DNA from: Tissierellia bacterium
GTDB taxonomy: Bacteria > Bacillota > Clostridia > Tissierellales > Tepidimicrobiaceae
Direction of reading: 5' to 3'
NCBI GenBank assembly: GCA_012728725.1
Contig: JAAYEM010000049.1
Span: 1 to 45,835 of the forward strand
Length of the DNA stretch: 45,835 bases
Both the position numbers and the translations under genes were made by a program. Under the pieces are notes generated by a model. It was given only the letters and a program-made list of their open reading frames with translations, had not been told where the DNA came from and ran no database searches. Position 1 is the stretch's first letter; the number at the start of each line of letters is the position of its first letter. Below are positions 33,732 through 39,470 of the stretch, piece after piece.

Positions 33732-34490
33732 ATGCTAAAAGTAGTTATTAGTGGATTTTTGGGCCAGATGGGTCAAACTTTAGAAAGGCTTATTAAAGAA
33801 AAGGATGATATAGAAATAGTAGCAGGAATTAGCAGAAGCGCTGACTCCTATGAGGGGGAAATTAAAGTATATAAAAATATTTCTGAATTTGATGGCTCAT
33901 GTGATGTAATAATAGATTTTTCACATCCCGATACACTAGATAGTTTACTAGAGTATGCAAAAACAAACAAAACTCCCTTGGTGCTGGCTACAACAGGATA
34001 TAGTGATAATGATATGAGAAAAATTAAAGATACTTCAAACTCAGTACCTATTTTCTATTCAGCTAATACCTCTTTAGGAATAAACCTATTACTATCTTTA
34101 GTTTCTAAAGCAGCATCTGTACTAGGTGATGCTTTTGATATTGAAATAGTGGAAAGGCATCATAATAAGAAAATAGATGCTCCTAGTGGTACTGCCTACA
34201 TGATCGCAGATAAAATAAATGAAGTGTTTAATAACAATAAAGTATATGTTTTTGGAAGGCATTCTAAATCCAATAGAAGAACCCCAAAAGAAATTGGGAT
34301 CCATGCAGTAAGGGGAGGAACCTACGTAGGGGAACACGACATAATTTTTGCTGGATTGGATGAGGTTATAGAAATAAACCACAGGGCCTTATCTAAAAAT
34401 GTATTTGCAGAAGGGGCTATTGCAGCTGCCAGGTTCATAGTTAAGCAGGATAAGGGCTTATTTGATATGAATCATGTATTAAATATATAA
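33732..34490 (+). CDS. dapB: 4-hydroxy-tetrahydrodipicolinate reductase
   Basis: 252 residues. N-terminal nucleotide-binding loop SGFLGQMGQTL (family GxxGxMG), central ATTGYS near 96, and the signature VERHHNKKIDAPSGTA near 140 with the catalytic His and Lys. It performs the next step after DapA. The gene starts five bases after dapA and ends at a strong bidirectional terminator, so the operon is asd-dapA-dapB; later pathway genes are not in this window. Confidence 0.97.
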   Translation: MLKVVISGFLGQMGQTLERLIKEKDDIEIVAGISRSADSYEGEIKVYKNISEFDGSCDVIIDFSHPDTLDSLLEYAKTNKTPLVLATTGYSDNDMRKIKDTSNSVPIFYSANTSLGINLLLSLVSKAASVLGDAFDIEIVERHHNKKIDAPSGTAYMIADKINEVFNNNKVYVFGRHSKSNRRTPKEIGIHAVRGGTYVGEHDIIFAGLDEVIEINHRALSKNVFAEGAIAAARFIVKQDKGLFDMNHVLNI

Positions 34491-34494
34491 TAAA

Positions 34495-34520
34495 AAACCT
34501 GCAGCGTAACCTGTAGGTTT
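34495..34520. terminator. Bidirectional terminator between dapB and hpt
   Basis: AAACCTGCAG / CTGTAGGTTT with 6-base loop, T-run on the plus side and A-run before it serving the minus side. Confidence 0.85.
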
Positions 34521-34541
34521 TTTTATTATATATTTAATAAA

Positions 34542-35063
34542 TTAATCGTCAAAAGTAAATATATAGGGTACATTCCTATAGTAATCTCCATAGTTAAGGC
34601 CATATCCTACTATAAACACATCTGGGATAGTAAATCCTACATAATCTGGACTTATGTCTACTTTTCTTCTACTAGGCTTGTCCAGCATTACACAAACTTT
34701 AGTGGATTTAGGCCCTTTCATGTTTATAAAATCAACAACCTTTTTCATGGTATATCCTGAATCGATAATGTCATCTACAATTAATACATCCTTCCCCTTT
34801 ATACTAGTACGAATGTCTGTTACTATTTCCACTATGCCTGATGAAACTTCACTGTGACCATAGCTTGAAGTGGTCATGAAATCCACATTTACTGGAACTT
34901 TTATCTCCCTTACCAAGTCAGCAGAAAAGATAAAGCCTCCCCTAAGCAATGAAATAACGACAAGTTCCTTACCTTCGTAATCTTCAGTAATTTCTTTACC
35001 CAATTCTTTAACCCTTTTGGCTATTTGATCTGAGTCAATTAATATCCTAGGTTTTTTCTCCAT
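34542..35063 (-). CDS. hpt: Hypoxanthine phosphoribosyltransferase
   Basis: 173 residues, normal length. The PRPP loop VLIVDDIIDSGYTMKK is near 92-107, the flexible-loop segment LVVISLLRGGFIFSADLV near 30-47, and the C-terminal PDVFIVGYGLNYGDYYRNVPYI binds the purine. It salvages hypoxanthine and guanine to IMP and GMP. The site AAGGAAGGGAG precedes the ATG. A 41-codon membrane ORF ends 26 bases upstream on the same strand, so it is probably co-transcribed. Confidence 0.95.
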   Translation of the reverse strand: MEKKPRILIDSDQIAKRVKELGKEITEDYEGKELVVISLLRGGFIFSADLVREIKVPVNVDFMTTSSYGHSEVSSGIVEIVTDIRTSIKGKDVLIVDDIIDSGYTMKKVVDFINMKGPKSTKVCVMLDKPSRRKVDISPDYVGFTIPDVFIVGYGLNYGDYYRNVPYIFTFDD

Positions 35064-37658: not shown

Positions 37659-38204
37659 ATGTTTACTGAAAATACAGAAGAATTAGCTCAAAATAAACTA
37701 TTACTCTTATTTATAATCAATAAATCAAAAAAACCTCTCACCAATGAAGAAATTACTGAATTCATATTGGAAAATAATTATATGAATTATTTTTTGATTC
37801 AGCAGTATCTATCGGAATTGGTTGAATCCAATTTTATAAAACAGATAGATAAGGAAGGCAAAAAAGTATATATATTATTAGACAAAGGAAAATCAACCCT
37901 TTCCTACTTCGAAGATAGATTAAATCCTAAAATCAAAGATGAAATATCTTCTAAATTTAATAATGTAAAAGATAATCCAGTAAAGACTACTCAAGTTTTA
38001 GGAGAATTCTTTAAAAAAGGAGAATACCAATACATAGTTAATTTGAAACTTATAGAAAATAATGAAGCCCTTTTTAGCCTTTATCTAAATGTGGCAAATA
38101 CAAAACAGGCAGAAGAAATATGCCAAATATGGAAGGATAACACCGAATTTATTTACAAAAATATACTCAATATATTAACTAACAATAGTATGAACTTATT
38201 ATAA
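37659..38204 (+). CDS. DUF4364 family protein (winged-helix-like)
   Basis: 181 residues. The N-terminal ~75 residues look like a winged helix (LLLLFIINKSKKPLTNEEIT, then QQYLSELVESNFIKQ and a KKVYILLDKGKSTL wing), and the rest is an alpha/beta domain typical of the DUF4364 family common in Clostridia. A transcription-regulator role is inference from the fold. The site AAGAGGTG precedes the ATG. Its last six bases overlap the 3' end of the convergent beta-propeller gene. Confidence 0.85.
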   Translation: MFTENTEELAQNKLLLLFIINKSKKPLTNEEITEFILENNYMNYFLIQQYLSELVESNFIKQIDKEGKKVYILLDKGKSTLSYFEDRLNPKIKDEISSKFNNVKDNPVKTTQVLGEFFKKGEYQYIVNLKLIENNEALFSLYLNVANTKQAEEICQIWKDNTEFIYKNILNILTNNSMNLL

Positions 38205-39128
38205 TACTAAAATTCCGTTAGGCTCTAGTCCAACCTTAATATTATCAATTATACTATTAGATTCTATATTAAATAAGGTAAGCATATTAGTTGATATATT
38301 GGATATAAGTAGTATATTTTCTCTGTCCCGCTCTAATTTATTAGGCATACCAGCTAAATAGGTTTTGCTTATTAGTTTTTTGCTTTTTATATCCATTCTA
38401 TATAGATAACCATCATTAATATTTGTAATAAATATAATCTCATTACCATTTATTTTTAGCATATTGCTGAAATTTCCTTTAAAATCCTTACTCTCCTTTA
38501 TCTCATAAGACCTTAGGTCTATTATTGATATATTGCTATAATATATTCCTCCATTATCTATGTTTGATAAAACATAAAGTTGATTTTCCATAAAAAACAA
38601 TTTTACAGGATTATTCTTTAATCTAATTATCTTATTACCTACTCCTTTTAAATCAATAACGTTTATACTGTATCCATTACTATTTACCACATACATACTA
38701 TCCTTATCTATTTCGATATGGGAGGGTTTTTCTCCAACTGGTATGTTTTCAAGCAATGTGAATTGATTTTCATCTATTACAGAAATAGAATTGGAATCGC
38801 TGTTTGTAATAAAAAGGTGGTTTTTAAAATACTTTATACATGTGGGGAAGCTTCCTACATGTAATATATCTACAATTTCCTTGCTCTCTAGGTTCATTTT
38901 AAAAACAGAATTATTATAAGCATTGGTACAATATATATAATTTTTTCCGTTATAGGCTAAATCATAAGGACCAATAAAGCTACTATATGGGCCTAGAGTA
39001 TTAGGCCTATCCCTTTTCATTATTTTTTTCAAATCTACAGTTTCTATTACCTTTCTATCTTCTATATCAATATAAGTTAATGTATCATCCCCTGTATTAG
39101 CTACAATTACCTTTCCCTTTAATTTCAA
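38199..39128 (-). CDS. YncE-like beta-propeller protein
   Basis: About 309 residues of repeated four-stranded blades of the YVTN/40-residue type: VIVANTGDDTLTYIDIEDRKVI, LFITNSDSNSISVIDE, MYVVNSNGYSINVIDLKG, ILLISNISTNMLTLFNIES. There is no signal peptide, so it appears cytoplasmic. The frame opens at a GTG (39146), but the TTG at 39128 directly follows GGGGTGAT and is favoured. That site lies in one arm of a long inverted repeat (39129-39191). Ligand and role are unknown. Confidence 0.8.
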   Translation of the reverse strand: MKLKGKVIVANTGDDTLTYIDIEDRKVIETVDLKKIMKRDRPNTLGPYSSFIGPYDLAYNGKNYIYCTNAYNNSVFKMNLESKEIVDILHVGSFPTCIKYFKNHLFITNSDSNSISVIDENQFTLLENIPVGEKPSHIEIDKDSMYVVNSNGYSINVIDLKGVGNKIIRLKNNPVKLFFMENQLYVLSNIDNGGIYYSNISIIDLRSYEIKESKDFKGNFSNMLKINGNEIIFITNINDGYLYRMDIKSKKLISKTYLAGMPNKLERDRENILLISNISTNMLTLFNIESNSIIDNIKVGLEPNGILVL

Positions 39129-39191
39129 TTTATCACCCCTATCCACTGTATATAAGTTAATCTATGCAATACAGTGGATTTAGGTGATAAA
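39129..39191 (-). repeat. Long inverted repeat covering the beta-propeller gene RBS
   Basis: Arms 39129-39150 and 39170-39191 are complementary at 19 of 22 positions (9 pairs, 3 mismatches, 10 or more pairs) around a loop of ~18 bases. On the minus strand the 3' arm contains GGGGTGAT, the ribosome binding site, and the 5' arm contains ATCACCT, a mimic of the 16S anti-Shine-Dalgarno. No T-run follows, so it is not a plain terminator. Confidence 0.8.
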
Positions 39192-39198
39192 TTAAATT

Positions 39199-39420
39199 TT
39201 ACCAAATAAAAATTCTCCTCATCAATAAGGGCCCTTCAAGGGATATATTTCTCCTTTTAACTTCTGCAATCCATTGGTTAACCCTAGAAACCTTTTTCTT
39301 ATACCCATTTAAATCTTTTATCTGATCCAGTATTTTTAATTGATCTATCTCTTCAATAGTCCAATCTAGTAATTGCTCATTGGTCAAACTAGAATGGAAG
39401 TATACCTTAATTTTTCCCAT
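39199..39420 (-). CDS. Small hypothetical protein (73 aa)
   Basis: 73 residues, mixed alpha/beta with a basic centre (LNGYKKKVSRVNQWIAEVKRR). No signal peptide and no cysteine. GGAGGG lies six bases before the ATG but within the 3' arm of a stem-loop. It sits between folC and the beta-propeller gene on the same strand. I do not recognise the family. Confidence 0.65.
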   Translation of the reverse strand: MGKIKVYFHSSLTNEQLLDWTIEEIDQLKILDQIKDLNGYKKKVSRVNQWIAEVKRRNISLEGPLLMRRIFIW

Positions 39421-39424
39421 AAAA

Positions 39425-39470
39425 AACCCTCCTATAGAATCTATAAATATGTATATTCTATAGAAGGGTT
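39425..39470 (-). terminator. Stem-loop between folC and the 73-aa gene; terminator containing an RBS
   Basis: On the minus strand AACCCTTCTATAGAAT / ATTCTATAGGAGGGTT pair over 16 bases (one G-T), with a 14-base loop, followed by six T residues and then ATG of the 73-aa gene. It looks like the folC terminator, yet its 3' arm holds GGAGGG, the only ribosome binding site for the next gene. Confidence 0.75.

Follow-up and report, generated by a model that had tools for sequence, protein, structure and literature searches.

In phage T4, long early transcripts of gene e (lysozyme), and likewise of the I-TevI gene, are described as folding so that their ribosome site is hidden, and transcripts from nearby late promoters as lacking the 5′ strand of this fold and being translated (PMC3014915). 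For Bacillus subtilis spoIIIG (sigG), a hairpin lock on read-through RNA is outlined as a proposal (PMC5942855). These known cases, including the proposed one, concern single genes. Here we describe an element of the same kind in the window, i.e., a contig of 45,835 bp from a Tissierellia bacterium, upstream of a gene for a beta-propeller protein. The arrangement of a long, folded and a short, translated RNA was shown experimentally for T4 gene e and is inferred for our locus; T4 gene e uses phage late promoters, whereas the propeller element would use a sporulation promoter. spoIIIG combines a forespore σF/σG promoter with a sigma factor gene, in contrast to the mother-cell-type promoter, the beta-propeller gene and the different bacterial order found here. 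No report of this element was found in the open-access literature searched. Our main reading, to which we assign a probability of roughly 70%, is that a σK-type promoter is built into a hairpin hiding the Shine-Dalgarno sequence (SD), and that the two form a lock which licenses only messages begun by the sporulation polymerase.

The original prediction described an inverted repeat whose arms pair at 19 of 22 positions, with an SD before a TTG start in one arm and ATCACCT in the other. Arms and motifs were recovered exactly on re-analysis, the motifs on the minus strand, and the match continues when the arms are extended (Table 1). The repeat at 39129–39191 is real and far beyond chance: only one further place in the 45.8 kb window (34474–34542) reaches 19/22 at a gap of 3–60 nt, and five first-order Markov simulations of the window yielded no repeat of this quality. 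The second repeat sits between convergent genes, which we take to be dapB and hpt, and is probably a bidirectional terminator. A repeat family or mobile element was ruled out, as the repeat is present in a single copy in the genome assembly. The minus-strand RNA is predicted to fold at −34.3 kcal/mol (z −7.54), with none of 200 dinucleotide shuffles as stable; all folding and opening energies given here are predictions. The locus thus has the stable hairpin, with the SD in its 3′ arm, that is expected of a ribosome-binding site gated by the transcription start.

Table 1. Features of the propeller locus, in window positions.
Feature	Position	Strand	Remarks
Inverted-repeat arms	39129-39150 / 39170-39191		19/22 bases match
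5′ arm of hairpin	39169..39199	(-)	26/31 complementary to 3′ arm; expected only in transcripts entering from upstream
3′ arm of hairpin	39121..39151	(-)	expected in long and short transcripts alike
SD of propeller gene, GGGGTGAT	39132..39139	(-)	within 3′ arm, 3 nt before TTG start
ATCACCT anti-SD segment	39182..39188	(-)	in 5′ arm; pairs with SD core in the predicted fold
-35 (TCACC) of putative nested promoter	39187-39183	(-)	inside ATCACCT; invariant in 20/20 family members
-10 (GCATAGATTA) of putative nested promoter	39158..39167	(-)	in hairpin loop, 15 nt after TCACC
Expected transcription start region	39151..39153	(-)	inferred from -10 spacing
Propeller gene	38199..39128	(-)	TTG start (39128-39126); 309 aa; YncE-like beta-propeller
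73-aa ORF	39199..39420	(-)	upstream of propeller gene, same strand; stop 11 nt before -35
folC terminator-like hairpin	39425..39470	(-)	3′ arm carries SD (GGAGGG) of 73-aa ORF; T-run before ATG

The propeller protein matches the Pfam YNCE beta-propeller family (PF21783, E 3.2e-10) above the family cut-off, but falls far under that of the NCBIfam YncE equivalog (19.4 vs 400 bits). folC lies upstream on the same strand, alongside the 73-aa ORF. The stop codon of this ORF lies 5–24 nt from the −35 box in those 17 of the 20 family members for which the distance was measured, and in many relatives the ORF is replaced by folC or an intrinsic terminator. The terminator-like hairpin of folC carries AC-N16-CATATTTAT in its loop, possibly a second promoter within a hairpin; hairpins of this type recur in the 19 family members with a recognised folC, and a CATA box was seen by eye in only about 12 of them.

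The segment ATCACCT had been regarded as an anti-SD mimic. Its pairing with the SD was borne out; what had not been foreseen is that the same segment also supplies the −35 box of a candidate promoter whose −10 box lies in the loop. Read on the minus strand, TCACC-N15-GCATAGATTA has the form of a late mother-cell (σK-type) promoter. The B. subtilis σK motif is summarised as a −35 box of 5 nt and a −10 box of 10 nt at a gap of 14–16 nt (PMC517825); for Clostridium difficile, a −35 of AC is given, with CATATAAT as the −10 at one σK promoter (PMC3789822). Compared with these textual descriptions, the nested promoter shares the AC-type −35, the CATA −10 and a gap within the published range. It differs from both in that its −35 doubles as an anti-SD and its −10 sits in a hairpin loop. 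The −10 boxes of σE and σK are described as resembling each other (PMC3789822); judged by its boxes, the nested promoter is probably of σK type.

In the upstream regions of orthologs, TCACC and GCATARAYT, the latter 15 nt further on and followed by TATA-rich DNA, are the most constant bases, ahead of those of the stem. Of 70 ortholog loci, which were drawn from the 88 genomes with a propeller match (18 genomes are not in the set), 67 show the promoter pattern together with an SD and a start codon. The three loci without the promoter by pattern (L120, L121, L128) were excluded from all analyses with n = 67; a covariance model nevertheless detects the element in front of the propeller gene at two of them (G049, G060). 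Of the matches of this model away from propeller genes, 20 were inspected: three precede an S8 protease gene, the others are terminator-like or unclear. Pattern scans of the window's own genome returned one match each, this element alone, and therefore no promoter set was obtained from them. Comparable promoters occur at genes of this order that are not homologous to the propeller gene: by spacings counted by eye, the same promoter type precedes the S8 protease gene (AC-N17-CATA) and a similar one dpaA (AC-N16-CATA), and the region upstream of spoIVA has a differing promoter with ATA-type boxes, as expected for σE. dpaA, with seven strong matches, all under the model cut-off, and six readable upstream regions, was taken as the σK yardstick instead of YabG, which was dropped as it is absent in 51 genomes. 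The −35 box is closely preceded by the end of an intrinsic terminator in several relatives, so that transcription of the propeller gene would have to start in or after the element.

Transcripts entering from upstream, i.e., from folC or the 73-aa gene, would contain both arms and fold, leaving the SD unreadable. RNA polymerase with a sporulation sigma factor would recognise TCACC and GCATAGATTA and start at approximately 39152, past the 5′ arm; an mRNA begun there would have the 3′ arm alone, could not fold and would be translated. Since the putative promoter would start transcription after the 5′ arm, folding would be limited to transcripts entering from upstream. With the long RNA occluded and the RNA from its own promoter free, the gene would consequently depend on its own developmental promoter for any translation.

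The computed cost of opening the ribosome site agrees with this scheme. For the window, the cost of freeing the region from SD to start codon is 17.6 kcal/mol with the long RNA vs 0.0 with the short one. The promoter is placed such that a transcript from the inferred start lacks the 5′ arm, and RNA begun at 39152 folds at just −1.8 kcal/mol with its SD unpaired; closure of the window's SD is incomplete (mean unpaired probability 0.17). Mean opening costs are 14.35 (long) vs 3.06 kcal/mol (short, begun after the −10) for the 67 orthologs, and 17.35 vs 1.95 kcal/mol for the window's family. Shuffling the upstream sequence of the 67 orthologs gave a mean of 8.36 kcal/mol, or 10.56 when the −35 was kept. 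At the 0.05 level, the cost exceeds that of plain shuffles in 17/20 family members and 40/67 orthologs overall, and that of −35-keeping shuffles in 13/20 and 29/67, respectively. Opening cost was used after the mean SD unpaired probability, tried first, had shown no difference between orthologs and −35-keeping shuffles (0.191 vs 0.200).

The last comparisons bear on the view that the promoter alone matters and that the hairpin is a by-product of TCACC/GGTGA complementarity at close spacing plus drift, which we consider unlikely. Part of the pairing does come free because −35 and SD are complementary by themselves, as seen in the cost retained by −35-keeping shuffles and in the similar unpaired probabilities; 38 of the 67 orthologs are not above such shuffles, several distant ones (e.g., L100, L102, L108, L114) show no excess opening cost, and the −35 and −10 boxes are the most constant parts of the element. 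Against this view, S8 protease genes, which have the same promoter type near an SD and were taken as a control, show little excess: 9.05 vs 7.78 kcal/mol in shuffles, with 7 of 29 loci above at 0.05 (30 loci, less L238, which has no SD by pattern). Within the family, propeller genes exceed S8 genes in opening cost (17.35 vs 6.58 kcal/mol; Mann-Whitney p 6.9e-6, a test which ignores relatedness). Further, the main partner of the SD lies off the −35 in 23/67 orthologs, and the inner stem, clear of both −35 and SD, covaries.

This covariation was assessed in an alignment of the 20 members of the window's family, where 6 of the 17 pairs have both bases exchanged in one sequence or more. In the 10-pair inner stem, 86.5% of cells pair; its covariation of 0.320 compares with 0.198 in shuffles, none of 500 being as high, and with at most 0.130 when slid. 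Parsimony on a protein tree gives 8 double changes that compensate each other and 19 changes on one side without loss of pairing, along with 22 breaks and 10 changes of other kinds. Within the family, selection acts on the hairpin. A look for covariation in relatives had been suggested as a check on the first description, and the SD-hiding pairing proved both conserved and covarying; on the other hand, the 22 breaks found next to these changes on the tree count against the lock. Over all 67 orthologs, the SD pairs mainly with the −35 in 44 cases and with the spacer in 15; in 5 its main partner precedes the −35, in 2 it falls on the −10 and in 1 it lies downstream. In 57 of the 67, the mean pairing of the SD with bases preceding the presumed start amounts to one half or more. 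Across families, the predicted partner of the SD thus shifts its place, as if pairing itself were kept. A propeller homolog from a distant family (L130, G050) has a very short leader, with 12 nt from the first base of the −10 to that of the SD; this region (CCTACAGTTTAT / ATAAACTGTAGG) forms a strong predicted hairpin around the −10.

The same stem bears on whether the palindrome instead serves a sporulation regulator as a DNA operator that overlaps the promoter. Operators with DNA symmetry around promoters are common, and the symmetry around this promoter is near-perfect. In columns 20–27 of the inner stem, however, G·U pairs outnumber A·C mismatches 14 to 5, which points to RNA rather than to a DNA operator, and the sequence and spacing of the arms vary among families, unlike a fixed binding site. 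A purely DNA-level operator, which had been raised as a possibility, therefore appears very improbable.

Blocking of translation until something opens the hairpin was the core of the original prediction. The hiding of the SD was upheld by the conserved, covarying pairing; as the opener, promoter choice is likelier than those envisaged there. A cis-regulatory switch opening the hairpin within the long transcript (an RNA thermometer, a ligand riboswitch, a protein-bound RNA or coupling to ribosomes on the 73-aa gene) would also fit a hairpin that does hide the SD, and the close stop codon of the 73-aa ORF in the window would suit ribosome coupling. Temperature or a ligand is not needed, since the constant loop bases are accounted for by the −10, and Rfam covariance models identified no family at the repeat locus up to E 1; the single Rfam match, a sub-threshold snoRNA, lies elsewhere. 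Opening through read-through translation of the 73-aa gene is disfavoured as well: the coupling is not conserved, many relatives lacking this gene or having folC or a terminator in its place. Moreover, the pairing arm moves between families. We therefore rate such a switch as improbable, about on a par with the operator. As the −35 lies in the 5′ arm and the −10 in the loop, the key is likely the transcription start rather than temperature, a ligand or read-through translation.

A further point counting against the lock is that upstream terminators, present at many elements, should already limit the presumed read-through RNA. Terminators and hairpins often occur together in orthologs; with a crude detector prone to false calls in AT-rich DNA, the association of terminator presence with hairpin strength reached p 0.03 in all 67 orthologs and was not significant without the window's family (p 0.16).

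The propeller gene itself is associated with sporulation. Among 150 related genomes, 88 carry it and 90 have a SpoIVA match above the cut-off; both occur in 83 genomes, the propeller gene alone in 5 (G007, G018, G086, G127, G137), spoIVA alone in 7 and neither in 55 (Fisher p 4e-27, ignoring relatedness). The window's genome (G000) encodes SigK (362.4 bits, cut-off 298.65) as well as SpoIVA, as expected for a σK-dependent promoter, and a second, weaker sigma match is likely SigE. In several of the 61 genomes searched (e.g., G008, G012, G014, G030, G059), sigK matches in two pieces, as if interrupted by skin-like elements. A split S8 subtilase gene, with the break near residue 200, occurs in three genomes from different families (L252, G059:C2:2989600-2995700; L253, G030:C36:300-14300; G044:C20). 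In two of the three, the intervening DNA contains an ORF of 535–547 aa, presumably a large serine recombinase, and the arrangement is reminiscent of the skin or yin elements that interrupt sporulation genes.

In the ortholog comparison, the putative promoter and the predicted SD-hiding hairpin are kept together across an order while the pairing arm changes place, in contrast to the single-gene cases mentioned above. If the lock were confirmed, transcriptome reads over such genes could not be equated with expression, as the start site used would decide on translation. In clostridia that have received little study, the element also offers a testable route to late-sporulation genes of unknown role (the propeller gene, perhaps that of the 73-aa protein). 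A broader and much more tentative idea is that start-site-gated translation is a recurrent means of insulating genes of late sporulation in Tissierellales and their relatives, with promoter boxes moulded into anti-SD arms and the pairing arm changing its position relative to a fixed promoter without loss of SD sequestration; the device may even be present twice in tandem here, for the 73-aa gene within the folC terminator hairpin and then for the propeller gene. At a separate locus (L202, G005:C80), a gene which we take to encode a PrsW-like membrane protein is preceded by a strong hairpin (TCACCTACCAATAATATA / TATATTATTGGAGGTGA) that hides the SD but has no CATA box.
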